Source of the DNA: Rhizomicrobium sp.
Lineage (GTDB): Bacteria > Pseudomonadota > Alphaproteobacteria > Micropepsales > Micropepsaceae
Reading direction: 5' to 3'
NCBI GenBank assembly: GCA_037200985.1
Contig: JBBCGJ010000001.1
Coordinates: forward strand, 1,216,756 to 1,280,755
Length of the DNA: 64,000 nt
This document shows positions 22,065 to 36,033 of the stretch, one piece after another (the first letter of the stretch is position 1; each line of letters begins with the position of its first letter). A program made the translations under genes and the position numbers. The notes beneath the pieces are model-generated. The model was given only the letters and a program-made list of their open reading frames with translations, was not told where the DNA came from and did no database searches.

Positions 22065-23657
22065 TCAGGGCGAGACCGCGACCGACACCGCCTTGAGCAA
22101 AGGCGCGGGGCCGTTCTGCCCGAGCGCGGTGGCGCGCAGATTGGGCGAGGCATAGGACGGCACGACGGTGAAGACGAGATCGCCCGGTGCCTTGCCTTTC
22201 GCGGCGGCCGGCAGCCTGGTGAGCGGCACCTGGAACGTCACGTCCATCGCCATCATGCCGGCCATGAAGCCGAAGAACGACACGGTTCCGGCGTAGTAAG
22301 GGCTGTCGGCCTCGACATGCGTCGTCCCGGGCGGGGCATTGACCAGCACGTCGTAGTCGCGCGGCGCCGCGCCCGACATCGGATGCGGGATGGTGATCGA
22401 AGCGACCAGCGTGCCGCCCTGCAGCAGGTTCTGCGGTACCGACACCGCACCGGCGCCGGCGCTCACCGCGCCGACGAAGGGCTTCAGCGCCGCCACCGCG
22501 GCGGCGACGGGCGTGACGCTCTGCTCGCCGGACCCGGGCTGATAGGCATAGTCGAAATCGCCGATCGGAATGCTCTCGCCGGCCGTCCGCCGCGGCGCCG
22601 GCTTGCCCATGCGGTCGACATAGAAGAGGAACGGCTCCGTCGCGAAGGTCCGGAATTGCGCACCGGTCGGCAGCCAGGGCAGGCGGCGCGCCTGCTGCTT
22701 GCGCGTCCACACATCCCACAGCCGGTCCATGTTGGAATGGTGCAGGAAGAACACCGGATCGACCGGCGACAAATTGTCGGCCATGTAGCCGAATTTCAGA
22801 TACTGGTCGTTCGGGATGTGGCCGACGCCCCCGATATTGTTGTGCGTCTTGTTGTGCGGCTGGCCTTCGAGGATGGCGAACACCGTCGTCCCGCTCGGCG
22901 CGGTGTTGTGCGACGGCGTCTCGTTCGAGTTGAACGTATCGAACGTATTCGGCGCCAACCCCTTCAGGATCGTCGGCAGCGACACCGTCACCTTGGTCTT
23001 GTCGTCCAGCCAGGGATTGGCCTTGGTCAGGTAGCGCGCATAAGGCGTCTGCGCGTACATCGCACTCTGCTCGAAATCCTTCACCTGCTGCCACAGCGAT
23101 GCGAGCGTCGGCATCCCGCGCGTCTGGAGCTGCGCAAGCTGCGCCGGCGACAGCGTCTTCCAATAGTCCGTCATCGCCGGATTGAGGTATTCGAAAAACG
23201 TCTCGAAGGTCGAAATATAAGGATTGAAGAACCCGCTCGTCGGATCGAGCGCGCCGGAGAACATGCCTTCGGGAATCCGCGCCTCCGCCGTCCAGTCCCA
23301 ATAGGGAAAGGCGAAATTGGGACTGCCCGAGGCGTCGCGCACCGTCTGCTCGAAATAGCCGACGAAGGGACGGTGCCAGGTGAAGAACCACCAATTGCCG
23401 TGCGGGCAGTCCATCGCGTGGATGAAGGCATTGCGGAACCAGTTGCGGCTGTCGCCGGCATCGTATTTCAGCAAATTCCGCACGCCACGCTCATAGCTCA
23501 CCAGCATGGCGCGGCCCTGCGGGCTGGTGGCGTTGTAGCGGGTGTATTTCGCTGCGGGCGCCGCGATGGCGGGCAGCAGCGCCGAACCCGCGGCCGCGGC
23601 GGCGGTGCCCAGGAAGACGCGACGCGAAGTACCGGGTACGTCGAACAGGACCGTCAT
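22065..23657 (-). CDS. Exported tyrosinase / polyphenol oxidase-like type 3 copper enzyme
   Basis: This enzyme oxidises phenols to quinones with a dinuclear copper centre. The 530-residue protein begins with a twin-arginine-like signal (SRRVFLGTAAAAAGS). CuA ligands are His80, His86 and His95 in HAMDCPHGNWWFFTWHRPF, with Cys84 in a position that could form the Cys-His thioether. CuB ligands are His268, His272 and His306 in GQPHNKTHNN and DPVFFLHHSNMDRLW. A long C-terminal domain (about residues 380-530) resembles the PPO/hemocyanin-like shielding domain and contains repeated beta segments. Substrates may be plant or humic phenols or an endogenous pigment precursor. It is co-transcribed with the small secreted protein. 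Confidence 0.92.
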   Translation of the reverse strand: MTVLFDVPGTSRRVFLGTAAAAAGSALLPAIAAPAAKYTRYNATSPQGRAMLVSYERGVRNLLKYDAGDSRNWFRNAFIHAMDCPHGNWWFFTWHRPFVGYFEQTVRDASGSPNFAFPYWDWTAEARIPEGMFSGALDPTSGFFNPYISTFETFFEYLNPAMTDYWKTLSPAQLAQLQTRGMPTLASLWQQVKDFEQSAMYAQTPYARYLTKANPWLDDKTKVTVSLPTILKGLAPNTFDTFNSNETPSHNTAPSGTTVFAILEGQPHNKTHNNIGGVGHIPNDQYLKFGYMADNLSPVDPVFFLHHSNMDRLWDVWTRKQQARRLPWLPTGAQFRTFATEPFLFYVDRMGKPAPRRTAGESIPIGDFDYAYQPGSGEQSVTPVAAAVAALKPFVGAVSAGAGAVSVPQNLLQGGTLVASITIPHPMSGAAPRDYDVLVNAPPGTTHVEADSPYYAGTVSFFGFMAGMMAMDVTFQVPLTRLPAAAKGKAPGDLVFTVVPSYASPNLRATALGQNGPAPLLKAVSVAVSP

Positions 23658-23764: not shown

Positions 23765-24748
23765 TCAGGCTTTGGCCGCGACTTTGGCGAGTGCGGCCAT
23801 GCGCGCGATGACCTCTTCGGCTTCGGCCATGATGCCGGCGATGATTTCGCGAGCGGGTTTGACGTCGTGGATGGCGCCGGCGCCCTGGCCGATGGCGAAG
23901 GCCGAGCGTTCGCGCGACAGCCCCTCGATCTGGCCGCCGATGCCGCCCATCACGCCCGCCTGGCTCGAGAGGATCGCCTGCGCCGGGAACGGCTTGATGT
24001 CCTGCGGCCGCTTCTCCCAGTCCGCGACCCATTCGTTCCTGAACACCCGCATCGGCTTGCCGGAATAGGACCGCGTGATGATCGTGTCCTCGTCGGTCGC
24101 ATCCACGATGACCTGCTTGTAGAGCCCGCCGGCATGCGCCTCGGTCGCCGCGATGAAGCGCGTTCCCATCCACACGCCCTGCGCGCCCAGCGCCAGCGCC
24201 GCAGCGAGACCGCGCCCGTCGACGATGGCGCCCGCCGCGATCACCGGGATCTTCACCGCGTCCACGATCTGCGGGATCAGCGCCATGCCGGCAATGCGGC
24301 CCGTATGGCCGCCGGCCTCCGTTCCCTGCGCCACCACGGCATCGAGCCCGCCGGCCTCGGCCGAGCGCGCATGCTTGACCGTGCCGTTGACGTTCATGAC
24401 TTTCAGGCCCGCGTCGTGGAATTTCTTCACCAGATGCGGCGGCGGCACGCCGAGGCCGGAGATGAACGCCTTCGCGCCGCCCTCGATGATGATATCGGCG
24501 GTCGCCTCCAGCGATTGTGGCACCGCGGCGAGCAGATCGACGCCGAACGGCTTGTCGGTCAGATCGCGCACGACTTTCATCTCATGCTTGATCTCTTCGG
24601 CGGAGCGCCCCGCCATGCCGAGGGTGCCGAACCCTCCGGCCTCAGAAACGGCTGCGGCCAGTTCGCCGTAAGACACGCCGCCCATACCCGCGAGCATGAT
24701 GGGATAGTCGATGCCGAGCATGTCGCAGAGAGGCGTGCGGAGAGTCAT
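23765..24748 (-). CDS. Nitronate monooxygenase / 2-nitropropane dioxygenase-family flavoenzyme
   Basis: This FMN-dependent TIM-barrel protein of the NMO family has 327 residues. It contains the N-terminal DYPIMLAGMGGVSYGELAAAVSEAGGFGTLG, the GTEAGGHTGRI segment (about residues 141-151) bearing the catalytic His and the phosphate-binding AAGAIVDGRGLAAALALGAQGVWMGTRFIA. Family members oxidise alkyl nitronates, but many act on other substrates or serve as enoyl reductases, so the reaction here is not certain. It is a single gene on the minus strand between the Hsp70-like and tyrosinase genes. Confidence 0.88.
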   Translation of the reverse strand: MTLRTPLCDMLGIDYPIMLAGMGGVSYGELAAAVSEAGGFGTLGMAGRSAEEIKHEMKVVRDLTDKPFGVDLLAAVPQSLEATADIIIEGGAKAFISGLGVPPPHLVKKFHDAGLKVMNVNGTVKHARSAEAGGLDAVVAQGTEAGGHTGRIAGMALIPQIVDAVKIPVIAAGAIVDGRGLAAALALGAQGVWMGTRFIAATEAHAGGLYKQVIVDATDEDTIITRSYSGKPMRVFRNEWVADWEKRPQDIKPFPAQAILSSQAGVMGGIGGQIEGLSRERSAFAIGQGAGAIHDVKPAREIIAGIMAEAEEVIARMAALAKVAAKA

Positions 24749-24786
24749 GGCGTCCTCGTTTTCACCTTCCCTCCGGGGAGGTGGTT

Positions 24787-26040
24787 CTATCCAAACCGCT
24801 TCTGCGCCTCGCGCGTCAAGCCTAACGCCACGGAAAGGAAATCCGAGCCCGTCGTCGCGCGGGCGTTCGGCGCGGCGCGCCCGATCGCCGCGCGCACCGC
24901 CGGCACGCGGCCCGATCCGCCGGTGAAGAAGATCGTATGGATGTCGTCGGGCCTGAGGCCCGCATCGCGGATGCAGTCCGACGCGGTGCGGAACAGCCGC
25001 TCCGTCCGGCTCGCGATGGCATGATCGAAACCGTGACGCGTGGCCTCCGCCGCCAGCCCGCGCTCGATGAAATCGAGGGCCAGGACGGCCGCGTTCGCCT
25101 CGCTGAGCGCGATCTTGCCGTCCTCCACGGCGAAGGCGATGCGGTGGCCGAGCCGCTCGCGCACCACCTTGAGCAGTCGCGCCACCTTCTCCGGCTCGCG
25201 CGCGCCGGCGGTCAGTTCGATCAGCATGCGCTCGCTCTGATAGGTGTATGCGAAGTTGATCGTCGACCAGGTGCTGAGCTCGTAATAGAGCCCGTTCGGC
25301 ATCGGCAGGTTCTTCTCGACAAGCTGCGTGCCGAGGCCGAGCTGCGGCATGACCGCCTCCAGGCTGAGCAGCGAGTCGAAATCCGTGCCGCCGATCCGCG
25401 CGCCGTCATTGGCCAGGATGTCGTCGGTTCGGTCCGCCCGGCGCATGCGCTCCGGCCCGATGCGGATGACGGTGAAGTCCGACGTGCCGCCGCCGATATC
25501 GGCGATCAGCACGGTTTCCTCCCGCGTGGCGGTCTCCTCGTAATGATAAGCCGCCGCGATCGGCTCGTAGACGAAGGCCACGTCGCGGAAGCCGACGCGG
25601 TTGGCGATCCCTTCCAGCACGCGCTGCGCCTTGGCGTCGGCCGCGTCGTCGTCGTCCACGAACCGCACCGGGCGGCCGTGCACCACGGCGGTCAGCTCCG
25701 TGCCGGCAAAGATTTCGGCCTTCTGTTTCAGATGCCGCACGAAGATCTCGACCACATCGGTCAGCGCCACCATCTTCGAGCCCAGCGCCGTCTTCTCGTC
25801 GATCAGGGGCGAACCCAGGATCGACTTCAGCGCCCGCATCAGCCGCCCGTCATGCTGGCCGATATAGGTCGCGATGGCCTCCGCCCCGAACAGGACGTTG
25901 CCCTTGGTCTCGTAGTCGAAGAACACCGCGCTCGGGATCAGCGTTTCGCCGCCCTCGACGGGCGCCAGCACCGGCGCGTTGCCGCGCAGGACGCCGATCG
26001 CCGAATTGGATGTTCCGAAGTCTAAGCCGCAGGCCGCCAT
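24787..26040 (-). CDS. Hsp70-family protein (YegD-like)
   Basis: The 417-residue protein contains only the actin/Hsp70 ATPase fold: phosphate-1 loop CGLDFGTSNSAIGVLRG at the N-terminus, phosphate-2 loop LIADIGGGTSDFTVIRIG at about residue 200 and the adenosine motif FFTGGSGRVPAVRAAIGRA near residue 380. It lacks the substrate-binding domain and DnaK C-terminus, as in YegD, so it may be a regulatory ATPase or specialised chaperone. The ATG at 26040 is preferred over 26070 because the fold begins there and GGGGA precedes it. No partner gene is adjacent. Confidence 0.88.
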   Translation of the reverse strand: MAACGLDFGTSNSAIGVLRGNAPVLAPVEGGETLIPSAVFFDYETKGNVLFGAEAIATYIGQHDGRLMRALKSILGSPLIDEKTALGSKMVALTDVVEIFVRHLKQKAEIFAGTELTAVVHGRPVRFVDDDDAADAKAQRVLEGIANRVGFRDVAFVYEPIAAAYHYEETATREETVLIADIGGGTSDFTVIRIGPERMRRADRTDDILANDGARIGGTDFDSLLSLEAVMPQLGLGTQLVEKNLPMPNGLYYELSTWSTINFAYTYQSERMLIELTAGAREPEKVARLLKVVRERLGHRIAFAVEDGKIALSEANAAVLALDFIERGLAAEATRHGFDHAIASRTERLFRTASDCIRDAGLRPDDIHTIFFTGGSGRVPAVRAAIGRAAPNARATTGSDFLSVALGLTREAQKRFG

Positions 26041-26078
26041 GGGTGTCCCCGTGAGATGAGGGGACGCCATCTATTACA

Positions 26079-26161
26079 CTGGAAGCAGCCTTGCCAGTCT
26101 GTTTTTTTGCGCTTATGCTATCTGTCATACTGGGATGTCCGAAAAACGGGCGTCCTTTTTT
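26079..26161 (+). terminator. Two plus-strand hairpin/T-run terminators between minus-strand genes
   Basis: Hairpin 1 (26079-26097, CTGG...CCAG) is followed by seven T (26102-26108). Hairpin 2 has stem GGATGTCCG (26133-26141), loop AAAAA, stem CGGGCGTCC (26147-26155, with G-T pairs) and six T (26156-26161). Both face the plus strand, although the genes on either side are on the minus strand. They could end an antisense or small RNA. Confidence 0.6.
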
Positions 26162-26174
26162 GTTTGTGTACGGA

Positions 26175-26807
26175 TCATCGCGCCGCCGGCCGGCGCAGCG
26201 CCTTCACCATCGCGTAGAGCGCCACCGCGATCACATTCGGCATCCACGACGTGTAGGCAAGCCAGACCGACGCGGCGCTGTAGGTCGTAAAGCCCTCCAT
26301 GGCGAAGAACGGAATCTGCAGGCGCAGCGTCACGGCGGCGAAGGTCATCGCATAGCTGAAGCGCATCAGGAGGCGGTGCAGGTCGAATTTCCGCATCGCC
26401 GCGGCGCGCCAGGCGCCGAGCGTCGTGACGACCCACAGAAAGGCCAGCGTGCCGAAGCCGATCCCCGCGACCGGTCCGCCCGAGGCATAAGGCGCCGTCG
26501 CCAGCGCCGCGACTCCGGCGATCACGCAGGCCGCGACATAGACCTTGCCCAGCGTGCGGTGCAGGGCGGGGCGCCGGACGCGGATCGCGGTGAAGAACTG
26601 GAACGGCCCGACCAGCAGCGCCACCGGCGCCACGATCATATGGACCAGCGCGCGGACCGGCACGCGCTCGATGACGCCGCGGATGCCGTCATCCACCTGC
26701 AGCCAGACATGCGCCGGCACGGCGGCGAAGCGGAACGAATAGAGCGCGACGCCGACGGCGAGGAACGCCATGGCCGCCAGCCCGATCCGCGCGATCCCTC
26801 TTTCCAT
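26175..26807 (-). CDS. DUF2306-like polytopic membrane protein
   Basis: The 210-residue protein has about six hydrophobic segments, beginning GIARIGLAAMAFLAVGVALYS. Conserved-looking elements are RALVHMIVAPVALLVGPFQF, PALHRTLGKVYVAACVIAGVAAL and RKFDLHRLLMRFSYAMTFAAVTLR, in the pattern of DUF2306 membrane proteins with several membrane-embedded His and Arg. The ATG at 26807 has GGAGAGG 3 nt upstream; an ATG at 26819 is also possible. It is divergent from a TetR-type regulator, which probably controls it. The function of this family is unknown. Confidence 0.8.
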   Translation of the reverse strand: MERGIARIGLAAMAFLAVGVALYSFRFAAVPAHVWLQVDDGIRGVIERVPVRALVHMIVAPVALLVGPFQFFTAIRVRRPALHRTLGKVYVAACVIAGVAALATAPYASGGPVAGIGFGTLAFLWVVTTLGAWRAAAMRKFDLHRLLMRFSYAMTFAAVTLRLQIPFFAMEGFTTYSAASVWLAYTSWMPNVIAVALYAMVKALRRPAAR

Positions 26808-26861
26808 CGCCCTCTCCATCGGCCAGTATCTTAACAACGTACAGATCAGATAGGGCGTTAT

Positions 26862-27524
26862 TTGAACAGTGTCAAGATAAAGCGAAAACCGAAAACGCCG
26901 GCGAAGAAGCGGGCCTATCACCACGGCGACCTGAAGGATCAGCTCGTCGCGGCCGCGGAGGCGATCATCCTGGAGCGCGGGGTGGACGGCTTCACGCTGC
27001 GCGAGGCGGCGCGCCGTGCCGGGGTTTCCCCGGCCGCCCCGGCGCATCATTTCAAGGATACCAAGGGGCTTCTATCCGAGGTCGCGCTGCGGGCCTTCAA
27101 GGATTTCGGCGACGCGCTGGCCGCAGCCGACGCGCGCGGCGGCGCCGATCCGGCGGCGCGCCTGCGCGAGCAGGGGCTCGCCTATGTGACCTTCGCGCTG
27201 TCCCATCCGGCGCGCTTCCAGCTGATGTTCCGCCATGCGATGTACGACATCGACTATGCCGGCCTGGCCGACACCGGCGGGCGCGCTTTCGCCGTGCTCG
27301 AACGCGCGGTACGCGCGGCGACGGCGCTGTCCGAGGGCGCGCCGATGACGTCCGACGCCTTCGGCTTTCTCCTGGCGACCTGGTCGATCGTCCACGGCTT
27401 CGCGCATCTGGCGCTCGGCGGCGATCTCGATTCCGCGGCGCAAGGCCTGGGCGGCCCAAAAGCGATCCTCGACCGCTTCCTGCCGCTGATGCTGAAGCAT
27501 CTGCCGACGCCGTCTAGAAAATGA
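26862..27524 (+). CDS. TetR/AcrR-family transcriptional regulator
   Basis: The 220-residue regulator starts with a basic arm (KIKRKPKTPAKKRAYHHGDLKDQL) and the TetR helix-turn-helix (ILERGVDGFTLREAARRAGVSPAAPAHHFKDTKGLLSEVALRAF). The C-terminal half resembles the WHG-type ligand domain (HPARFQLMFRHAMYD, WSIVHGFAHLALGG). The only workable start in the frame is a TTG at 26862. It is divergent from the DUF2306 gene, so it is a likely local repressor acting in the 54-bp gap between them. Its 3' end overlaps the convergent SDR gene by 11 nt. Confidence 0.9.
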   Translation: MNSVKIKRKPKTPAKKRAYHHGDLKDQLVAAAEAIILERGVDGFTLREAARRAGVSPAAPAHHFKDTKGLLSEVALRAFKDFGDALAAADARGGADPAARLREQGLAYVTFALSHPARFQLMFRHAMYDIDYAGLADTGGRAFAVLERAVRAATALSEGAPMTSDAFGFLLATWSIVHGFAHLALGGDLDSAAQGLGGPKAILDRFLPLMLKHLPTPSRK

Positions 27525-28293
27525 CGTAGCCGCCGTCGATGATGAACGTGTCGCCCGTGTGGTACTTCGAAGCGTCGGACGCGAGATAGACCGCGATGCC
27601 GCCGAAATCCTCCGCCGTGCCCCAGCGGCGCATCGGCACGCGGCTGATCACCTTCTCGGTGAACACCGACGAGCTCTGCGCCCCCGCCGTCATGTCGGTG
27701 GCGATCCAGCCCGGCGCGACGGAATTGGCCCGGATGCCGTAGCGCGCGTGCTCCACCGCGATGGAGCGGATCATCGCCAGGACCGCGCCCTTGGTCGCGC
27801 TATAGGCCTCGTTGCGCGCCGCGCCTTCGATGCCCGCCAGGCTCGCCACGCCGACCAGCGAGCCGCCCGCGTCGCCCTTGCCCGCCCGCTCCACCATGTG
27901 CTTGCACGCCTCGCGCAGGGTGAAGAACACGCCCTCCTCGTTGACCGCGTGGATCTTGCGCCAGGTGTCGATGGTCATCTCGCTGAACGACCGCGAGCCG
28001 AAGCCGATGCCGGCATTGGCGATCACCGTGTCGACGCGCCCGAATGCCGTTATCGCCGCGCCCATCGCGTCGATCACCTCGGTCTCGCTGGCGACGTTCA
28101 CCTTGCTTGCGGCGACTCGCGTGCCGTGCGCCTTGAGGCTGGCGGCGGCCGCGGCGTTCTTCTCTTCGTTCGTGCCCCAGATCACGATATCGGCGCCGGC
28201 CTGCGCCATCGCATCGGCCATGCCGAGGCCGATGCCGCCATTGCCGCCGGTGACGAGCGCGACCTTGCCGCTGAGATCGAATGGCTTGTACAT
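27514..28293 (-). CDS. SDR-family oxidoreductase
   Basis: The 259-residue classical short-chain dehydrogenase has the Rossmann motif TGGNGGIGLG at residues 15-24, NAGIG at 93-97, catalytic Ser151, Tyr164 and Lys168 (YSATK) and a C-terminal IDGGYV segment typical of 3-oxoacyl-ACP reductase/gluconate dehydrogenase-like members. The cofactor preference is unclear; WGTNEEK after strand 2 suggests NADP(H) is possible. GAGGGAA lies just before the ATG. The substrate is not predictable. It stands alone, convergent with the TetR gene and divergent from the Ntn-hydrolase-like gene. Confidence 0.92.
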   Translation of the reverse strand: MYKPFDLSGKVALVTGGNGGIGLGMADAMAQAGADIVIWGTNEEKNAAAAASLKAHGTRVAASKVNVASETEVIDAMGAAITAFGRVDTVIANAGIGFGSRSFSEMTIDTWRKIHAVNEEGVFFTLREACKHMVERAGKGDAGGSLVGVASLAGIEGAARNEAYSATKGAVLAMIRSIAVEHARYGIRANSVAPGWIATDMTAGAQSSSVFTEKVISRVPMRRWGTAEDFGGIAVYLASDASKYHTGDTFIIDGGYVIF

Positions 28294-28441
28294 GATGTTC
28301 CCTCCGGGTTCCGACCGACGCCGAACCTAGCCACTGCCCGAAAGACGGGCAATGTGCCCTCGTCAACCATGTTTCTTGTCGCCTCCCAATTGTCGCGGGG
28401 CTGTGGAATACTCCAGCAAAAGGCGGGGTAGGGCGTATCGC

Positions 28442-29695
28442 ATGACATCCGAGATCGCGGTGATGAACCAGCGCGCGGTGGCGCTCGCCGCGGATTCGGC
28501 CGTCACGCTGATCGACGGCGGCACCGTCGTGGTGCGCAACGACCAGCGCAAGCTCTACAACCTCGTCGGCGGCCAGCCGGTCGGCGTGATGTTCTTCGGC
28601 GTGGCCGACATGATGGGCCACCCCTGGGAACATCTGATCGAGCATTACCAGAAGACCGTGAAGCCCGGCACGCTGCCCCATATCCGCGGCTACGCCTCGG
28701 GCTTCGTCGGCATGCTGGACAATCTGGAGGAGTTCTTCCCGAAGAACCGCCAGCGCGACGAATACAAGCGGCTGCTGGCGAGCGTGTTCCGCTACATCTT
28801 CCACCTCGCACAATATCTGCGCGAGAGCGGCGGCGAGGAACGCGCCCATATCAGCGACACGGCGATCCTCGAAGAAGCGATCGAGCGGGTGTGGCGCGAT
28901 TATCAGTTCCGCGAGGACGGCAGCCCGCGCGGCGATCTTTCCTGCTTCCCGGCCGGCTTCGCCGAGACGGTGCGCAAGACCTACGCCGCCGACATGGATG
29001 AGGTCATCGCCTACGGCTTCCAGCCCTTCGGCCTCGGCAAGCAGGGGATCGCCCATCTGAAGGAGATCGCGGTCTATGCGGTGGTGAAGGACCTGTTCCT
29101 GGAGGACGTCACGGGCCTGGTCTTTGCCGGCTTCGGCTCGGAGGAGCGCTATCCGATCGTCACCACCTGGTTCGTCTCGGCCATCGTCGGCGGCATCGTC
29201 AAGCGGGCCGAGGCCTCGTTCGACCAGATCGACGGCGACACCCGCTCCAAGATCCGCGTCTTCGCCGACAGCGAAGTCACCAACGCCTTCATCCGCGGCA
29301 TCGATTTCAACCTGGAGCGCAGGGTCTACGGCGCGCTGAACATGCTGATGCATGCCCTGGTCGACCAGGTCGTTGGCGCCTTCCCGAACGCCGATCCGGT
29401 GGTCAAGGAGGACATCCGCCGCCAGTTCCAGTCGAACTACATCCCCCAGTATTTCGATGTCTTCCGCGGCATCATCGGCGACTACCAGCAGCACGCCTAT
29501 ATCAACCCGGTGCTCCGGGTGCTGGAGATCGCGTCGCGGACCGAGCTGGCCGAGACCGCGCGCGAACTGGTCTCGCTCAACGTTTTCAAAAAGCGTATCA
29601 TGGCGCAGAAGCAGACGGTGGGTGGCGCCATCGACGTCGCGATCATCAGCCGCGAGGGCGGCTTTCAGTGGCATTCGAGGCAGGGTGGAGGCTGA
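28442..29695 (+). CDS. Proteasome/HslV-like Ntn-hydrolase-fold protein with large C-terminal region
   Basis: The 417-residue protein begins Met-Thr. If Met is removed, Thr1 heads TSEIAVMNQRAVALAADSAV, in which Ala15-Ala16-Asp17-Ser18 falls exactly where proteasome beta subunits and HslV have their (A/S)ADS/GD motif. A Lys at mature position 36 (NDQRKLYNL) can serve as the Lys33 equivalent. GVMFFGVADMMGHPWE then resembles the following Ntn strand. The remaining roughly 330 residues are helical and unlike HslV or the 20S beta subunit. The ATG at 28442 is chosen for this fit; upstream in-frame codons give non-protein-like sequence. No hslU or proteasomal ATPase is nearby. It is coupled to the next gene by a 1-nt gap. 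Activity is inferred. Confidence 0.72.
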   Translation: MTSEIAVMNQRAVALAADSAVTLIDGGTVVVRNDQRKLYNLVGGQPVGVMFFGVADMMGHPWEHLIEHYQKTVKPGTLPHIRGYASGFVGMLDNLEEFFPKNRQRDEYKRLLASVFRYIFHLAQYLRESGGEERAHISDTAILEEAIERVWRDYQFREDGSPRGDLSCFPAGFAETVRKTYAADMDEVIAYGFQPFGLGKQGIAHLKEIAVYAVVKDLFLEDVTGLVFAGFGSEERYPIVTTWFVSAIVGGIVKRAEASFDQIDGDTRSKIRVFADSEVTNAFIRGIDFNLERRVYGALNMLMHALVDQVVGAFPNADPVVKEDIRRQFQSNYIPQYFDVFRGIIGDYQQHAYINPVLRVLEIASRTELAETARELVSLNVFKKRIMAQKQTVGGAIDVAIISREGGFQWHSRQGGG

Positions 29696-29696
29696 C

Positions 29697-30155
29697 ATGG
29701 CCGAAAGACTGACAAACGCGACAGGCTCGCTGGCGGACGGCGCCGAGCGGCTGGAACGACTGATCCGCGGCGTGAAGGACCGGCAGTTCTCCGAGGCGCT
29801 GAACGCGCCCCAGCCCAAAAGCGTCTCCAATGCCTATGCCGTCAGCCCGGAAGAAGAATGGTCCAGGAAGTTCATGACCGCCGGGATCGGCCCGCACGAT
29901 TTCAAGCCGGTCCAGATGCCGGTGATCTCGATTGCCGCGCCGTCGGCCGCGCTCAAGCCGGCGCCCAAGGTGCTGGAGCCCGCCATCGCGGCCGTCGCCG
30001 CCAGTCCGGCCGCCCCCAAATCCGTCCCGAAGGCTGCGGCGCCAGCGGCCGCGGCCCAGTCGCCGGGTTCGGTGCGCCCCGGCCCGATCGGCGCCGCCAT
30101 CGCCAAGCCGGCGCGCAAGCGGACCTGGTTCGGCCGGATGGTGCGGGGGAATTGA
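29697..30155 (+). CDS. Disordered Ala/Pro-rich protein coupled to the Ntn-hydrolase-like gene
   Basis: The 152-residue protein has a short helical N-terminal part (SLADGAERLERLIRGVKDRQFSEAL), a probably structured segment SPEEEWSRKFMTAGIGPHDF, then a long low-complexity region rich in Ala, Pro and Lys, and a basic end RKRTWFGRMVRGN that could bind a membrane or nucleic acid. No family is recognised. The ATG lies one base after the preceding stop, so the pair is almost certainly translated together. It may be a substrate, tether or activator of the Ntn-like protein, but no motif proves this. Confidence 0.65.
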   Translation: MAERLTNATGSLADGAERLERLIRGVKDRQFSEALNAPQPKSVSNAYAVSPEEEWSRKFMTAGIGPHDFKPVQMPVISIAAPSAALKPAPKVLEPAIAAVAASPAAPKSVPKAAAPAAAAQSPGSVRPGPIGAAIAKPARKRTWFGRMVRGN

Positions 30156-30303
30156 TCGCCTCGCTTTCGCCATCAAGGCCGGGTTTGTCGCGCTCCCACA
30201 GGGGCTTGTAAGAATGTGTTGAGCCGGCTGCTCAATTGAGCGGCAGGGCGGATTTTGCGATAAGGTCTTGGACTCGCGTCGGGTCAAGCAAGGAGCTGAA
30301 AGC

Positions 30304-30825
30304 ATGAAGCGTTTCGGGGCCCTCATGGCCGCGCTGGCCGCGTTTTTGTCGTTCTCGGGGGCGGCGCAGGCGGCCGATCCGGCGCTGAGCGGCCCGGCGA
30401 ACGAGGCTTATCTGGCGGCGAATTCCCACAAACCGGGCGTCGTGGTGCGCCCCAGCGGCCTGCAATACAACATCATCAAGAGCGGCTATGGCGACCGGCC
30501 GAGGACGACCGACGAAGTCGACGTGCTCTACACGGGCATGCTGATCAATGGGAAGGTGTTCGACGGCACCGAGCCGATGACGCCCGCCCATTTCACCGTC
30601 AACAAGCTGATCCCGGGCTGGACCGAGGCGCTCAGCCTCATGCGGACCGGCGACAAATGGCACATCGTCATCCCGTCCGGCCTGGCCTATGGCGCGCGCG
30701 GCGCGGGCGACGGGCTGATCCCGCCGAACCAGGTGCTGGTGTTCGATATGGAGCTGCTGTCGATCACCCACCCCAAGGGGCCGCCCCCCGGGCAGGACCC
30801 CGACGATCCCAACGGCGGTCAATGA
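30304..30825 (+). CDS. FKBP-type peptidyl-prolyl cis-trans isomerase, exported
   Basis: The 173-residue protein has a signal peptide (MKRFGALMAALAAFLSFSGAAQA) and a single FKBP domain: SGLQYNIIKSGYGDRPRTTDEVDVLYTG, GKVFDGTEPMTPAHFTVNKLIPGWTEALSLMRTGDKWHIVIPSGLAYG and IPPNQVLVFDMELLSI. This is the FkpA/Mip-like form without the N-terminal dimerisation domain. It should assist folding in the periplasm. A strong AAGGAG lies 9 nt upstream of the ATG. The C-terminal tail is short and Pro/Asp-rich. Confidence 0.93.
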   Translation: MKRFGALMAALAAFLSFSGAAQAADPALSGPANEAYLAANSHKPGVVVRPSGLQYNIIKSGYGDRPRTTDEVDVLYTGMLINGKVFDGTEPMTPAHFTVNKLIPGWTEALSLMRTGDKWHIVIPSGLAYGARGAGDGLIPPNQVLVFDMELLSITHPKGPPPGQDPDDPNGGQ

Positions 30826-30881
30826 CGGCGGCGCAGTTGCGGAACCTGATATAAAATGGGCGGGCCCGGGCAGCGATAGGC

Positions 30882-33548
30882 GTGGTCGAGAAGGTCCTCA
30901 GTGGCTGGCGTCGATGGCTCGGGAGCGGCCGGCTCCGGATCGCCGCATCCTTGTTTCTGGTCGTCAGCGCCTCCGTGCTGTTCTGGGCCAGCCGCGACTA
31001 CACGATCGTGGCACCCGATTGGGAAGGCCAGATCCGCGGCGTCACCTACGCGCCCAGCCATGTGTTCTCGCTTCGCGAGCACAACCGCATTTCCCCCGCC
31101 CAGATCGACCGCGACATGGCGCAGCTCTCCCAGCTCACGGGGCGGGTGCGCACCTATACGGTGGGCGGCGGCATGGACAAGGTGCCGGAGATCGCCCGCC
31201 GCTATGGCCTGATGGTCTCGCTCGGCTGCTGGATCTCGGCCGATTCCGAGCAGAACGAGACCGAGCTTTCGCTCTGCATCAAGACCGCGCTCGCCAACCG
31301 CCGCGTCATCGACCGCGTCTTCGTCGGCAACGAGGCGATCCTGATGGGCTTCGTCACGCCCGACCAGCTCAACGGCTACATCAAGCGGGTGCGCGACGCG
31401 CTGCCCGACCGCATCAAGGTCACGACCGCCGAGCCGTGGTCGACCTGGCTGCTGACGCCGGAGATCGGCCAATATGTCGACGTCATCTCGGTGCACCTGC
31501 TGCCCTATTGGGAAGGTGTCTCCGCCCACGATTCCCTGCGCATGCTTGAGCACGCCTATAACGACGTCGCCGAGGAATTCCCCGACAAGCCGGTGATCAT
31601 CGGCGAGGCCGGCTGGCCGTCGGAGGGCCGCACCAAGCGCTTCGCCGAGCCCTCGGTCGCCAATGAGGCCTATTTCATGCGCGGCTTCGTCCAGCTCGCG
31701 CGCGAGAAGGGCTACGACTACTACCTGCTCGAAGGCTACGACCAGCCCTGGAAGGGCGGCAACGAAGGCTCGGTCGGGGCGAGCTGGGGCCTGTTCGACG
31801 CCATGGGCAATCCGAAATTCAGCTTCAGCGGCTTGCTGCGCACCTTCCCGGAATGGCGCACCTATGCGCTGTTCGCCTCGGTCCTCACCCTGGTTCTCGG
31901 CCTGATGATCCTGGGCTGGATGCCGCGCATGCGCCAGCAAGGCTATCTCGTCATGGGCGGCCTCGTCGCCGTGGTGACGACGGGCCTTCTGGTGCTGATC
32001 GACGCCAGCTCGCTCGAATATATCGATCCCGCCGACCTCGCCATGATCATCGCCATGGTGCCGCTGGTCCTGCTCGCCTCCACCGTGATCCTGACCGAGG
32101 GCATCGAGCTCGCCACCAGCCTGTGGCGCGTCGAGCGCCGCGCGCTGCGCACCGCCATCCCCAAGATCAGCCCGCGCGTCTCCATCCATGTGCCGTGCTA
32201 CAACGAGCCGCCGGCGATGGTGATCGGCACCCTGAACGCGCTGGCGCGCCTGGACTACGACAATTTCGAAGTCATCCTGCTGGACAACAACACGCCGGAC
32301 GAAGCCGTCTGGAAACCGGTCGCGGCGCATTGCGCCGCGCTGGGCGAGCGCTTCCGCTTCTATCACTACGACGACATGGCGGGCTTCAAGGCGGGCGCGC
32401 TCAACGAGGCGCTGCGGCTCACCGATCCGGCGGCGCAATACATCGCGGTGATCGACAGCGACTACCAGGTCGAGCCGTTCTGGCTGCGCCGCGCGCTGCC
32501 CTTCTTCGCCTCGCCCGACATCGCGGTGGTGCAGGGGCCGCAGGATTACCGCGACGCGCACCAGAACGCCTTCAAGTCGATGGCCTATCAGGAATATCGC
32601 GGCTTCTTCCAGATCGGCATGGTCGAGCGCAACGAGTACAACGCCATCATCCAGCACGGCACGATGACCATCGTGCGCCGCCACGCCCTGCAGGAAGTCG
32701 GCGGCTGGGCGACCTGGTGCATCACCGAGGATACCGAGCTCGGCCTCAAGCTGTTCGAGGCCGGCTATGGCGCGGCCTATATCCCGGAGAGCATGGGATC
32801 GGGCCTGATGCCCGACACGCTCGACGCCTTCATCTCCCAGCGCTACCGCTGGGTCTATGGCGCGATGCAGATCATGAAGCGCCATGCCGGCGCGATCTTC
32901 CTCGGCCGCACCAGGCTCACCGCCGGCCAGCGCTACCAGTTCCTGGTCGGCTGGCTGCCCTGGATCTCCGACGGCTTCGGTCTCGTCGTGACGCTCACGG
33001 CCCTGGCCTGGACTGCGGCGATGTGGGTGGCGCCGCAGACCTTCGACGTGCCGCTGCCCGCCCTGTCGGCGGCGGCGCTGGCCCTCTTCGTCGCCAAGAC
33101 GATGAAGACGCTGCTGCTCTATCCGCAGAAGGTGCGCTCGGGCATGAAAGGCGCCGTCGTCGCATCCATCGCCGGCCTTTCGACCACGCACGCGGTCGCC
33201 AAGGCGGTGATCTCGGGCCTCTTCACGCGCGGCCAGCCCTTCCTGCGCACGCCCAAATGCGAGGACCAGGCGCTGCTCAGCCAGGCGTTGCGCAAGGTGT
33301 GGCAGGAGACCACGCTGCTGGCGGCGTGCGTGCTGGCGCTGCTGTCGCTGGCGACCGGCGCCACGCTGGACGATCCGGCGATCCAGCTTTGGATGGTGAT
33401 GATCGCCGTGCAGTCGCTGCCCTATCTGGCGACGGTGGTGACCGCATCGATCAGCGCGATCTCGAACAAGCAGCGCAATGCGCGCTTGGCGGTGCAGGCC
33501 GTTCCGACCGCCCCCGATCCGAAACCGGCCTTGCCGAAAGCGGCATGA
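30882..33548 (+). CDS. GH17-GT2 bifunctional membrane glucan synthase/transferase
   Basis: The 888-residue fusion has an N-terminal membrane anchor, a GH17-like beta-1,3-glucan domain (about residues 45-320) with likely acid Glu151 (VFVGNEAIL) and nucleophile Glu242 (GEAGWPS), a pair of membrane segments (about 330-410) and a GT2 domain (about 430-660). The GT2 domain contains DNNTPDE, the DSD motif near 525, TEDTE near 614 and QRYRW near 653, followed by four or more C-terminal membrane segments. This architecture matches NdvB/NdvC-type proteins that make and rearrange beta-1,3/1,6-linked (often cyclic) periplasmic glucans. The start is a GTG. Repeat B1 follows. Confidence 0.9.
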   Translation: MVEKVLSGWRRWLGSGRLRIAASLFLVVSASVLFWASRDYTIVAPDWEGQIRGVTYAPSHVFSLREHNRISPAQIDRDMAQLSQLTGRVRTYTVGGGMDKVPEIARRYGLMVSLGCWISADSEQNETELSLCIKTALANRRVIDRVFVGNEAILMGFVTPDQLNGYIKRVRDALPDRIKVTTAEPWSTWLLTPEIGQYVDVISVHLLPYWEGVSAHDSLRMLEHAYNDVAEEFPDKPVIIGEAGWPSEGRTKRFAEPSVANEAYFMRGFVQLAREKGYDYYLLEGYDQPWKGGNEGSVGASWGLFDAMGNPKFSFSGLLRTFPEWRTYALFASVLTLVLGLMILGWMPRMRQQGYLVMGGLVAVVTTGLLVLIDASSLEYIDPADLAMIIAMVPLVLLASTVILTEGIELATSLWRVERRALRTAIPKISPRVSIHVPCYNEPPAMVIGTLNALARLDYDNFEVILLDNNTPDEAVWKPVAAHCAALGERFRFYHYDDMAGFKAGALNEALRLTDPAAQYIAVIDSDYQVEPFWLRRALPFFASPDIAVVQGPQDYRDAHQNAFKSMAYQEYRGFFQIGMVERNEYNAIIQHGTMTIVRRHALQEVGGWATWCITEDTELGLKLFEAGYGAAYIPESMGSGLMPDTLDAFISQRYRWVYGAMQIMKRHAGAIFLGRTRLTAGQRYQFLVGWLPWISDGFGLVVTLTALAWTAAMWVAPQTFDVPLPALSAAALALFVAKTMKTLLLYPQKVRSGMKGAVVASIAGLSTTHAVAKAVISGLFTRGQPFLRTPKCEDQALLSQALRKVWQETTLLAACVLALLSLATGATLDDPAIQLWMVMIAVQSLPYLATVVTASISAISNKQRNARLAVQAVPTAPDPKPALPKAA

Positions 33549-33552
33549 TTTC

Positions 33553-33688
33553 TTTCCTCCCCCGCTGTTGCGGGGGAGGTGCCGAGCGAAGCGAGGCGGA
33601 GGGGGCCTGTGCGGGGCGGCTGGCCCCCTCCGTCACGGCTCCGCTTCGCTCCGCCGTGCCACCTCCCCCGCAACAGCGGGGGAGGAAA
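33553..33688. repeat. Palindromic intergenic element, family B (copy B1)
   Basis: The element starts TTTCCTCCCCCGC and ends GCGGGGGAGGAAA, with internal complementary arms GGAGGGGGCC and GGCCCCCTCC, and terminal hairpins of CCTCCCCCGC-type stems. It lies between convergent genes and abuts the stop codon of the downstream minus-strand gene. Copy B2 at 48144-48277 is the same element in the opposite orientation. Confidence 0.85.
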
Positions 33689-35071
33689 TCAGAGCGCGAT
33701 CACCTTCCCGGGATTGAGAATATTCCCCGGATCCAGCATCCGCTTCAGCATCCGCATCACATCGAGCTCCGCCGCGCTCTTGTAGCGCGGGAGTTGATCC
33801 CGCTTCTGCACCCCGATGCCGTGCTCCGCGCTGATCGAGCCGCCGAAATCGCGCACGACGTCGTGCACGATCCGCTGCACCTCTTCCCAGCGCGCGAGGA
33901 ACGCGGCCGCGTCGCCCTCCTTCGGAGCGCTGAAATTGAAATGGATATTGCCGTCGCCGATATGGCCGAACGACACCGGCCGCGCGCCGGGAATCGCCTT
34001 CAGCACAGCCGCCGTCGCCGCGACGAGGAAGTCCGGAATCGCGCTCACCGGCACCGACACGTCATGCTTGATCGAGGCGCCTTCGCGCTTCTGCGCCTCC
34101 GACATGTTTTCGCGCAGCGCCCACAGCGCGGCGCGCTGCGCCTCGCTGGACGCGATGACCGCGTCGTCGGCGTCCGCCAGCGCGGTCTCGAAGGCGCCGT
34201 TCAGGTCGGACCCGCCGCCCGCCTCGACCAGCACATACCAGGGCGAGGGCTTGGACAAGGGATCGCGCGCACCGGGCATATGCGCCAGCACGAGTTCGAG
34301 CCCGGCCCGCGGCAGGATCTCGAAGGCGCTGACGAGGCCGCCCGTCGCCTCCTGCATCCGCCCCAGCAGCGCCACCGCGGCGGCGGGCGAGGGCAGGGCG
34401 ACGAAGGCGGTGGCCCGCGCCGCCGGCTTGGCGAACAGCTTCAGCGCCGCCGCCGTGATCACGCCCAGCGTGCCCTCGGCGCCGATGAAAAGCTGCTTCA
34501 GGTCGTAGCCCGTATTGTCCTTGCGCAGCGTGCGCAGCAGGCCGAGCACCCGCCCGTCCGCCAGCACGACCTCCAGCCCCAGCGCCAGGTCGCGCGCCAT
34601 GCCGTAGCGCAGCACCGCGACGCCGCCGGCATTGGTCGAAAGGTTGCCGCCGATCGTGGCGCTGCCCTCCGCCGCAAGGCTCAACGGGAAAAGCAGGCCG
34701 GCCTCGTCGGCCGCCTTCTGCACCTGGGCGAGGATCATCCCCGCTTCCACCGTGATCGTATGCGCCGCGGCATCGAGCCCGCGCAGCTTGTTCATCCGCG
34801 CCAGGCTGAGAACGACCTCGCCGTCGAACGGAATCTGCCCGCCGACCAGCCCTGTATTGCCGCCCTGCGGCACCACGGCGGTGTGCGTCTCGTTGCAGAT
34901 CGCCAGCAGCGCGGAAACCTCCGGCGTGGTCGCCGGCCTGAGCAGCAACGAGGAACGGCCATGATATTTGCTGCGCCATTCCTCCAGATGCGGCGCGATC
35001 TCCGCAGGGTCTTCCGAGAAGCCCTTCGGTCCGGCGGCGGCTTTCAGGCGCGCGAGCGTTTCGCCGTTCAT
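33689..35071 (-). CDS. FAD-linked D-2-hydroxyacid (2-hydroxyglutarate/lactate-type) dehydrogenase
   Basis: The 460-residue protein has the FAD_binding_4 (PCMH-type) domain, with PQGGNTGLVGGQIP near residues 68-81 and GNLSTNAGG near 139, and the FAD-oxidase C domain with FGHIGDGNIHFN near residue 365 and a C-terminal EHGIG and DPGNILNPGK. This is the D-2-hydroxyglutarate dehydrogenase/glycolate oxidase GlcD-like family, which oxidises D-2-hydroxyacids and passes electrons to the quinone pool or an electron-transfer flavoprotein. The exact substrate cannot be read from the sequence. The start overlaps the preceding Sua5-type gene by 4 nt. Confidence 0.9.
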   Translation of the reverse strand: MNGETLARLKAAAGPKGFSEDPAEIAPHLEEWRSKYHGRSSLLLRPATTPEVSALLAICNETHTAVVPQGGNTGLVGGQIPFDGEVVLSLARMNKLRGLDAAAHTITVEAGMILAQVQKAADEAGLLFPLSLAAEGSATIGGNLSTNAGGVAVLRYGMARDLALGLEVVLADGRVLGLLRTLRKDNTGYDLKQLFIGAEGTLGVITAAALKLFAKPAARATAFVALPSPAAAVALLGRMQEATGGLVSAFEILPRAGLELVLAHMPGARDPLSKPSPWYVLVEAGGGSDLNGAFETALADADDAVIASSEAQRAALWALRENMSEAQKREGASIKHDVSVPVSAIPDFLVAATAAVLKAIPGARPVSFGHIGDGNIHFNFSAPKEGDAAAFLARWEEVQRIVHDVVRDFGGSISAEHGIGVQKRDQLPRYKSAAELDVMRMLKRMLDPGNILNPGKVIAL

Positions 35072-36033
35072 GACGGATCTCGCGGCGCCGCCGCGCGGCG
35101 CAGCCGGTCGTTGATCGCCTCGCCGAGCCCTTCGTCCGGGATCGGCATCACGGCGATGGCCCGCGCCGCGTCGAGTTCGTGCAGCATCGCGAACAGGTTC
35201 GCGGCCGCCTCGCGCAGATCGCCGGTCCGGCTGAGGTTGCGCGCCGCGCGCGGCGCCTCCGGCCCGAAGCCGAGCAGCGTCTCGCCGGCGCGGGCCTCGC
35301 GCGCGTTCAGGCGCAGGCTCGCGCGCGGCGCATAGTGGCTGGCAAGCTGTCCCGGCGCCTGCACCTTGCCGTCGCTGGGCGCGATCAACGGCCCCGCGAT
35401 GCGCTCGATGGCTTCACGCGGGATCGCTCCTGCGCGCAGCAGCACCGGCTCGCCCGCGTCGAACCCGATCACCGTGGACTCCAGCCCCAGCGGCGTCGCG
35501 CCGCCGTCGAGGATCAGATCAACCATGTCGCCAAGGCCCTCGGCGACATGCGCGGCCGTGGTTGCCGTGATGCGGCCCGAGGCGTTGGCGCTCGGCGCCG
35601 CGATGGCGAGGCCGCTTTGCGCGATCAGCTTCGCCGCCACCGGATGCGCCGGCACGCGCAGCGCCACGGTACCGAGGCCGGCGCTGACCAGCTCGGAAAG
35701 CCGGCAATCCTCCTGCCGCGGCAGCACCAGCGTCAGCGCCCCAGGCCAGAACGCGTCCGCGAGCTTGCGCGCCGTGTCGTTGAACACGGCATGCCGCTCG
35801 GCTTCGGCGGCATCGTGGACATGGACGATCAGCGGATTGAAGCGCGGCCGCCCCTTCGCCTCGAAGATGCGCGCCACCGCGCGGCCGTTGGCGGCGTCGG
35901 CGCCCAGCCCGTAGACCGTCTCGGTCGGGAACGCCACGAGCCCGCCGTCGCGCAGAAGGCGCGCCGCCTCGGCGATGGCGCCGTCATCGGCGGGGCGCAG
36001 GAGTGGAGCCGTCGTCGTGGTCATGCGCCGCAT
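35068..36033 (-). CDS. tsaC: L-threonylcarbamoyladenylate synthase (Sua5 type)
   Basis: This enzyme makes threonylcarbamoyl-AMP from Thr, bicarbonate and ATP for the t6A modification of tRNA. The 321-residue protein has both the YrdC core (GGLVAFPTETVYGLGADAAN, KGRPRFNPLIVHV, SANASGRIT) and the C-terminal Sua5 domain (PGQLASHYAPRASLRLN onward). The KR..SANxSG motifs are intact except that the KxR position reads KGRPR. An ATG at 36024 is an alternative start. It overlaps the FAD oxidoreductase gene by 4 nt, an operon arrangement whose functional link is unclear. Confidence 0.94.
   Translation of the reverse strand: MRRMTTTTAPLLRPADDGAIAEAARLLRDGGLVAFPTETVYGLGADAANGRAVARIFEAKGRPRFNPLIVHVHDAAEAERHAVFNDTARKLADAFWPGALTLVLPRQEDCRLSELVSAGLGTVALRVPAHPVAAKLIAQSGLAIAAPSANASGRITATTAAHVAEGLGDMVDLILDGGATPLGLESTVIGFDAGEPVLLRAGAIPREAIERIAGPLIAPSDGKVQAPGQLASHYAPRASLRLNAREARAGETLLGFGPEAPRAARNLSRTGDLREAAANLFAMLHELDAARAIAVMPIPDEGLGEAINDRLRRAAAPRDPS

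Follow-up and report, generated by a model that had tools for sequence, protein, structure and literature searches.

A predicted proteasome-type threonine enzyme of Rhizomicrobium and its adjacent partner gene: a candidate two-component system without an AAA+ unfoldase

What might a protein with the active-site residues of a proteasome beta subunit do when it has more than 400 residues and no ATPase beside it? The question is raised by a gene of Rhizomicrobium sp. (assembly GCA_037200985.1, contig JBBCGJ010000001.1) in a stretch of 64,000 nucleotides (nt), here called the window, which an earlier note had described as a stand-alone, HslV-like candidate hydrolase with a large C-terminal region. 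The observation itself was confirmed, and the interpretation as a whole was partly supported. We consider it moderately probable that the gene encodes a proteasome-beta-type enzyme with the Thr1/Asp17/Lys33 set, which is likely gated or targeted by the product of the adjacent gene and works without an AAA+ unfoldase. The residues, the gene pair and the conservation were read from sequences, and the fold is a prediction. The pair would give a first handle on the role of a widespread, uncharacterised group of enzymes and, should no unfoldase be needed, would show how a small protein alone can control a proteasome-type active site.

The translation (Table 1) begins M-T-S-E-I-A-V-M-N and has the motif AADS at positions 16-19, which confirms a Thr directly after the initiator Met and an Asp at position 17 of the mature chain. 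An earlier in-frame ATG at 28352 would give a product of 447 amino acids (aa); the family alignment begins at 28442. The Lys that had been placed near the Lys33 site does align with Lys33 of the Thermoplasma 20S beta subunit, as precursor residue 37 (mature 36), after a 3-residue insertion. In the same alignment the Thr corresponds to Thr1, Asp18 to Glu17 and the late motif VGGAIDVAVI..DG to SGGMIDVAVI..DG. The Thermoplasma subunit was also ranked top in a profile search of PDB sequences, with a weak score (E 0.0076), and residue 2 of the structure model is aligned with the first residue of Anbu and of 20S beta chains. Single-sequence searches of the window enzyme against Pfam, NCBIfam and PDB gave matches at chance level, none of them credible; PF00227 of Pfam was not matched over the cut-off, and among 25 relatives one gave a match, at E 0.094.

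A hidden Markov model run over all open reading frames (ORFs) of the collected loci gave 183 matches, 144 of them unique, and 12 of the 144 rows lacked the N-terminus. Thr2, Asp18 and Lys37 were each present in all 132 homologues bearing an N-terminus, and Asn9 in 131. Conservation of the three residues among homologues had been named beforehand as a check, and because they are invariant, their placement is not a matter of chance. The surroundings of the nucleophile differ from those of the 20S proteasome. In the yeast enzyme Asp166 is hydrogen-bonded to the amino group of Thr1 via Ser129 and Ser169, and its mutation impairs activity (PMC4792962). In the family, the position of Ser169 holds Val in 130 of 132 rows, and that of Ser129, placed by our own alignment, Ala in 129 of 130. 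Asp166 cannot be safely placed; a near-constant Glu/Gln stands two columns ahead of the Val at the Ser169 position. To judge from these alignments, the set of residues activating the nucleophile is retained, and at least part of the second active-site set is not. As there is no propeptide, part of the task of the Asp166 relay would fall away, and slower hydrolysis or a transfer chemistry is possible.

The 417 residues are predicted to form a single proteasome-beta-type domain of the N-terminal nucleophile (Ntn) kind with two helical insertions. The model agrees with the proteasome-type fold of the earlier note, for which an alpha-beta-beta-alpha sandwich had been the check, and disagrees with its large C-terminal region: the fold is predicted to close at the C-terminus with strands 397-403 and 407-412, and the surplus residues lie within it, in the two insertions. 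The 20S beta subunit and Anbu have about 200-240 residues and neither of the large insertions.

The gene does not stand alone, as had been thought. A second gene begins after a gap of 1 nt, and such a partner is found behind most of the diverse members of the family. The window partner has an N-terminal helix, a conserved SPEEEWSRKFMTAGIGP motif, an Ala/Pro-rich linker and a basic C-terminal end; in its AlphaFold2 model (predicted local distance difference test score 59.9) most of the chain is without confident structure. Its homologues were counted at E 1e-3 or better, and the 27 that were aligned retain the pattern SP-E-WS...MT..IGP.

A short ORF was present at the partner's place in most relatives inspected, and its frequency was determined in a census. 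The 160 loci yielded 111 distinct full-length enzymes, which gave 64 representatives at 60 % identity; loci were dropped when the start-motif pattern had no match or the protein was a duplicate. As the pattern required Thr at position 2, the representatives used for the adjacency counts and for the tree are no test of that residue. Five of the 64 were excluded from the adjacency counts since their locus ended within 300 nt. An ORF of 40-90 codons starting within 35 nt of the enzyme stop was found in 47 of the remaining 59 representatives, compared to 32 of 132 controls, drawn from the remaining ORFs of these loci that encode at least 250 aa. When a Shine-Dalgarno score of at least 4 was also required, the counts were 41 of 59 and 21 of 132, respectively (Fisher p 1e-12). 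A looser definition (35-220 codons, start between -40 and +70), which had no control, gave partners in 51 of 59, with a median length of 59 aa and a median gap of 3 nt. In 19 non-overlapping partner pairs (7 from the clade of the window protein), limited to those at 40 % identity or more, substitutions at codon positions 1, 2 and 3 numbered 393, 333 and 785, and the partner ORFs are therefore likely to be real genes. A partner was missing in 4 of the 5 representatives whose tail past the GG motif has at least 60 residues and in 4 of the 54 others (p 7e-4, with the threshold set post hoc), and the long-tailed enzymes without a partner possibly carry a fused one.

The window protein falls within an alphaproteobacterial clade, supported in the tree, in which the partner is longer and the C-terminal tail short, and the locus is syntenic in near relatives. 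In the tree of 64 rows, where one near relative (L003) represents the window protein, the six representatives with a partner of 130-194 aa and a short C-tail cluster together (support 100/97). Most other family representatives differ from this clade in having a C-terminal tail (RKHYF...) and a partner of about 60 aa. Genes for an FKBP and a glycosyltransferase lie downstream of the enzyme in all 18 near relatives (L003-L020), about 5 kb away in one of them (L014), and a divergent gene for a short-chain dehydrogenase/reductase lies upstream in 12 of the 18. By tblastn the partner was next to the enzyme in 17 of the 18; the near relative without a match (L019) has a 130-codon ORF of its own at the partner's place. 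The synteny of the locus suggests that the window copy has a regular cellular task.

Beyond this clade the family is large and its distribution patchy. Of 7997 candidates scored in a database search, 660 homologues reached E 1e-3 or better, and the named ones among the best 120 of the 660 are hypothetical proteins, several of them from Rhizomicrobium. Distant relatives, found by alignment-based tblastn over query residues 1-414 and mostly with 24-31 % identity in the best segment, came from records labelled Bacteroidetes, Dehalococcoidia, Actinoplanes, Jiangella, various Proteobacteria and viral contigs. Archaeal relatives were found in Methanoregula and another euryarchaeote (L032, L033), both interrupted in frame. 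Identity to the window protein is as low as 21 % in an alignment of 25 rows, all of which match the virus protein family PHROG 5990 (for the window protein E 1.4e-64 over residues 1-413), a label that carries no function. Of the 398 genomes in a phylum sample, 10 had a family member, as had 15 of the 289 in a class sample, own genome included, and two of four genomes searched in the genus; PF00227 (HslV and its kin) was found in 31 of 31 genomes of a smaller sample. One member from a record titled Bacillus subtilis SK6B4 (L025) groups firmly with members from viral contigs (L119, L040, L041) and not with other Bacillota, a placement suggestive of contamination or mislabelling.

Many members are carried by mobile elements. 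They were found in 13 phage records and 10 plasmid records, as well as in 172 contigs of IMG/VR, the best 80 of which were kept; 9 of 5426 E. coli genomes have a relative that matches 30 % of the query with 73 % DNA identity. Of these, five phage records, two E. coli genomes and nine plasmid records were viewed for their gene context. E. coli prophages have the pair as an enzyme of 427 aa and a partner of 49 aa, the small gene being unannotated there; the enzyme gene is flanked by those of the Q antiterminator and a DNA methyltransferase and is on the opposite strand. A Providencia phage has it close to Q, a DNA adenine methylase and the holin, in a Stenotrophomonas phage it adjoins the holin on the opposite strand, and in a Porphyromonas phage it is among structural genes. 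Among nine Streptococcus phage or satellite records, which include near-copies, eight have a match ending no more than 250 bp from the record end. Positions such as those in the E. coli, Providencia and Stenotrophomonas elements often house accessory lysogeny genes, which suggests that the gene benefits its carrier; we infer that this benefit may be phage defence. The mobile copies likely have a task in conflict between elements.

Four of the nine plasmids whose context was viewed (Rhizobium sp. T1473, R. gallicum R602, R. leguminosarum TpK and Mesorhizobium 131-3-5; L163, L164, L166 and L064) have the enzyme gene about 1.2-1.5 kb from a ubiquitin-like operon. Multi_ubiq, a ThiF-type E1 and DUF6527 are encoded in all four operons, and the three Rhizobium records also have a ClpP-like protein. 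Both operons that were scanned contain a Multi_ubiq-E2 fusion, and the E1 of T1473 bears Prok-JAB. The T1473 and Mesorhizobium enzymes are on separate, well-supported branches of the enzyme tree, and the neighbourhood may therefore have arisen twice; a group count on labelled tree rows only is compatible with one origin. Multi_ubiq occurs in 7 of 289 genomes of the class sample and was not found in the window genome, in a search whose control genomes likewise gave nothing. The ubiquitin-like link was seen only in Rhizobiales plasmids and is not part of our main explanation. The enzyme gene is interrupted in the plasmids of Hyphomicrobiales UR115 and R. leguminosarum TpK (L165, L166).

The group itself is already known. 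In an in silico survey, Fuchs, Alva and Lupas (2021) added 22 proteasome homologues, of which PMI-4 (Proteasome homologue with Multiple Insertions 4) is the most numerous, with 501 sequences at 90 % identity (PMC8665760). According to their survey, an insertion after H1/H2 occurs in PHI, PMI-3 and PMI-4 and one between H3 and H4 in PMI-2 to PMI-6, and PMI-4 has both, with a range including phages and Euryarchaeota (PMC8665760). The window enzyme fits PMI-4, as judged by these described features. The model has a long insertion after H1/H2 (helices within 101-215) and one between H3 and H4 (within 289-362). The pair of insertions also fits PMI-3, but for that group the survey's table lists 28 sequences and marks no phages (PMC8665760), and the spread seen for our family, with phages and Euryarchaeota, is that of PMI-4. 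The window family and PMI-4 have in common the proteasome-like fold (predicted for the window enzyme), Thr1/Asp17/Lys33, the lack of a propeptide, the occurrence in several bacterial phyla and the absence of any reported linked AAA+. The survey gives no genomic context suggesting a function and no co-occurring AAA+ interactors (PMC8665760), whereas here a partner gene was found. The earlier note's "poorly described group" was supported, although the group had been found in silico before; the literature searched, without preprints and most subscription journals, gave no functional study of it, and in a 2026 review (PMC13022661) the survey appears, for the terms looked up, only in the reference list. 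New are the partner gene, the patchy family with its many mobile members, the supported alphaproteobacterial clade and the loss of Ser129 and Ser169.

The proposed mechanism starts with the removal of Met1 by methionine aminopeptidase, which would free Thr1 without a propeptide. Lys36 of the mature chain, helped by Asp17, would then activate the Thr1 hydroxyl for attack on an amide and formation of an acyl-enzyme, as the invariance of these residues suggests. The two predicted helical insertions likely cap the active site or alter assembly, restricting access. Largely disordered by prediction and likely transcribed together with the enzyme, the partner would bind the capped enzyme and open it or deliver a substrate, a part comparable to that of HslU for HslV. 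In near relatives the pair is syntenic; elsewhere, with a partner of about 60 aa, it is often carried as an accessory by prophages, satellites and plasmids, which it would likely benefit, perhaps against other phages. A wider reading, which we put forward only as a tentative possibility, is a mobile two-component system without an ATPase, in which a capped Thr enzyme, with the partner as activator or substrate, acts on intruder or host proteins in phage competition, and which has become a chromosomal pair in one alphaproteobacterial clade; with part of the second active-site set of the proteasome gone, such an enzyme may join proteins rather than cut them.

Several results weigh against the favoured explanation. 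The window enzyme has Ala and Val at the Ser129 and Ser169 positions, and efficient peptide hydrolysis is therefore not assured. The model is of a single chain and is silent on subunit assembly. Even by the looser definition the partner is missing in 8 of 59 representatives, and the small and the long partners are too diverse for homology to be evident. A motif like E-W-x3-F was modestly enriched (11 of 54, shuffle mean 3.2, maximum 8 in 500), so that one strict motif common to the small partners has only modest support. For the 25 alignment members and the enzymes among seven proteins, PADLOC-DB 2.0.0 (2023) gave only weak partial matches, the best at 0.0056; these matches (DpdH at 0.0093 and others) are short and were rejected as chance, but a lack of matches in a library of that year is compatible with a defence role. 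No obvious defence gene was present among the nine window neighbours scanned with Pfam.

Other explanations were considered. The enzyme could be a protein ligase or acyl transferase resembling connectase, in which Thr1 would take up a specific sequence as an acyl-enzyme and transfer it to another amine, the partner possibly being donor or acceptor. Retention of the activating triad together with Ala and Val at the two Ser positions would suit such an enzyme, and the proteasome relatives include a monomeric ligase whose active site is covered by a helical insertion that controls its specificity (PMC8665760). Connectase itself is archaeal and lacks H1/H2. The window model appears to have helices at the H1/H2 place and none between its third and fourth strands. 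Against this explanation, the two-helix insertion of connectase is at another site, between S3 and S4, no recognition sequence was found, and conserved Glu/Gln and Thr in neighbouring columns might substitute for the lost relay; we regard a ligase as unlikely. A toxin-antitoxin or abortive-infection module, in which the small partner would keep a toxic protease in check until a phage upsets this state, seems quite unlikely. It would agree with the tight linkage of the two genes, with members on satellites, phages, plasmids and viral contigs, and with the transcription against the neighbours in E. coli prophages and the Stenotrophomonas phage; independently expressed lysogeny genes are often transcribed in this way. 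Of the 19 pairs, 17 show lower conservation in the partner than in the enzyme, which also speaks for such a module, and two show the reverse, which speaks against it. Furthermore, the enzyme gene comes first, members without a separate partner exist (for example L026, L049, L064, L078), the PADLOC models gave no convincing match, and the window copy is syntenic in near relatives.

It is very improbable that the enzyme is an HslV-like protease borrowing HslU or another AAA+ unfoldase of the genome. HslV is likewise a bacterial proteasome homologue with an N-terminal Thr, and in favour of this explanation an HslV-type gene lies elsewhere in this genome, at the single PF00227 locus, about 2.24 Mb from the window gene and adjoined by an AAA_2 match (presumably HslU). 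However, HslV has about 175 aa and works with HslU, whereas the window enzyme is much longer and has no HslU paired with it. None of the eight AAA_2 matches of the genome is inside the window and no AAA+ domain was found in the nine scanned neighbours (23765-36033), in agreement with the earlier note's statement that no HslU-type ATPase is nearby. HHalign gave no profile similarity to HslV (probability 0.4 %; a weak test, with 6 HslV rows from 30 loci), and the insertions are at sites argued to be able to hinder ring or double-ring assembly in PMI proteins (PMC8665760). A catalytically dead scaffold, for which the loss of the Ser129/Ser169 part of the 20S active site might speak, is hardly credible, as Thr2, Asp18 and Lys37 remain invariant at identities down to those of the most distant aligned relatives. 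We continue to favour an enzyme controlled by its partner. The partner directly behind the enzyme, also present in the E. coli prophage pair, offers a concrete and cheap route to asking what PMI-4 enzymes do.

Table 1 Features of the locus, in window positions
Feature	Position	Strand	Remarks
PMI-type proteasome homologue	28442..29695	+	417 aa; one predicted Ntn (proteasome-beta) domain, two helical insertions
Codon of Thr2 (Thr1 of mature chain), predicted nucleophile	28445..28447	+	kept in 132/132 homologues
Codon of Asp18 (proteasome Asp/Glu17)	28493..28495	+	kept in 132/132; aligned
Codon of Lys37 (proteasome Lys33)	28550..28552	+	kept in 132/132; aligned
Insertion I, about residues 95-222, predicted helical	28724..29107	+	H1/H2 region to next core strand; model helices 101-129 to 200-215; limits approximate
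Insertion II, about residues 288-364, long predicted helices	29303..29533	+	H3 to H4; model helices 289-312 and 319-362; limits approximate
C-terminal core strands with QTVGGAIDVAII..GGFQW	29612..29677	+	aligned to 20S beta SGGMIDVAVI..DG
Partner gene	29697..30155	+	152 aa; starts 1 nt after enzyme stop (29695); next to enzyme; 108 homologues
Most conserved motif of partner, residues 50-66	29844..29894	+	invariant S50 P51 E53 W55 S56 M60 T61 I64 G65 P66 in 27 aligned homologues
Hsp70-type ATPase (PF00012), stand-alone	24787-26070	-	427 aa; nearest chaperone-like gene; in 9/18 near-relative loci

The enzyme gene is present in one copy in the genome of 4.64 Mb, which is assembled as one contig. 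A scan of 28200-30300 for a promoter or terminator found neither. The Hsp70-type gene was considered as a helper of the enzyme and rejected, as it is on the opposite strand and three to four genes distant. On the Ruegeria TM1040 megaplasmid, the second annotated gene downstream of the PMI gene (L065:11095-12213) matches PDC-S51, a candidate phage-defence model, at E 1.7e-101, and the gene between the two encodes a DUF3800 protein. Within the window, the reverse-strand gene at 22065-23657 has the tyrosinase-like motifs FTWHRPFVGYFEQ and HHSNMDRLW, which were spotted by eye.
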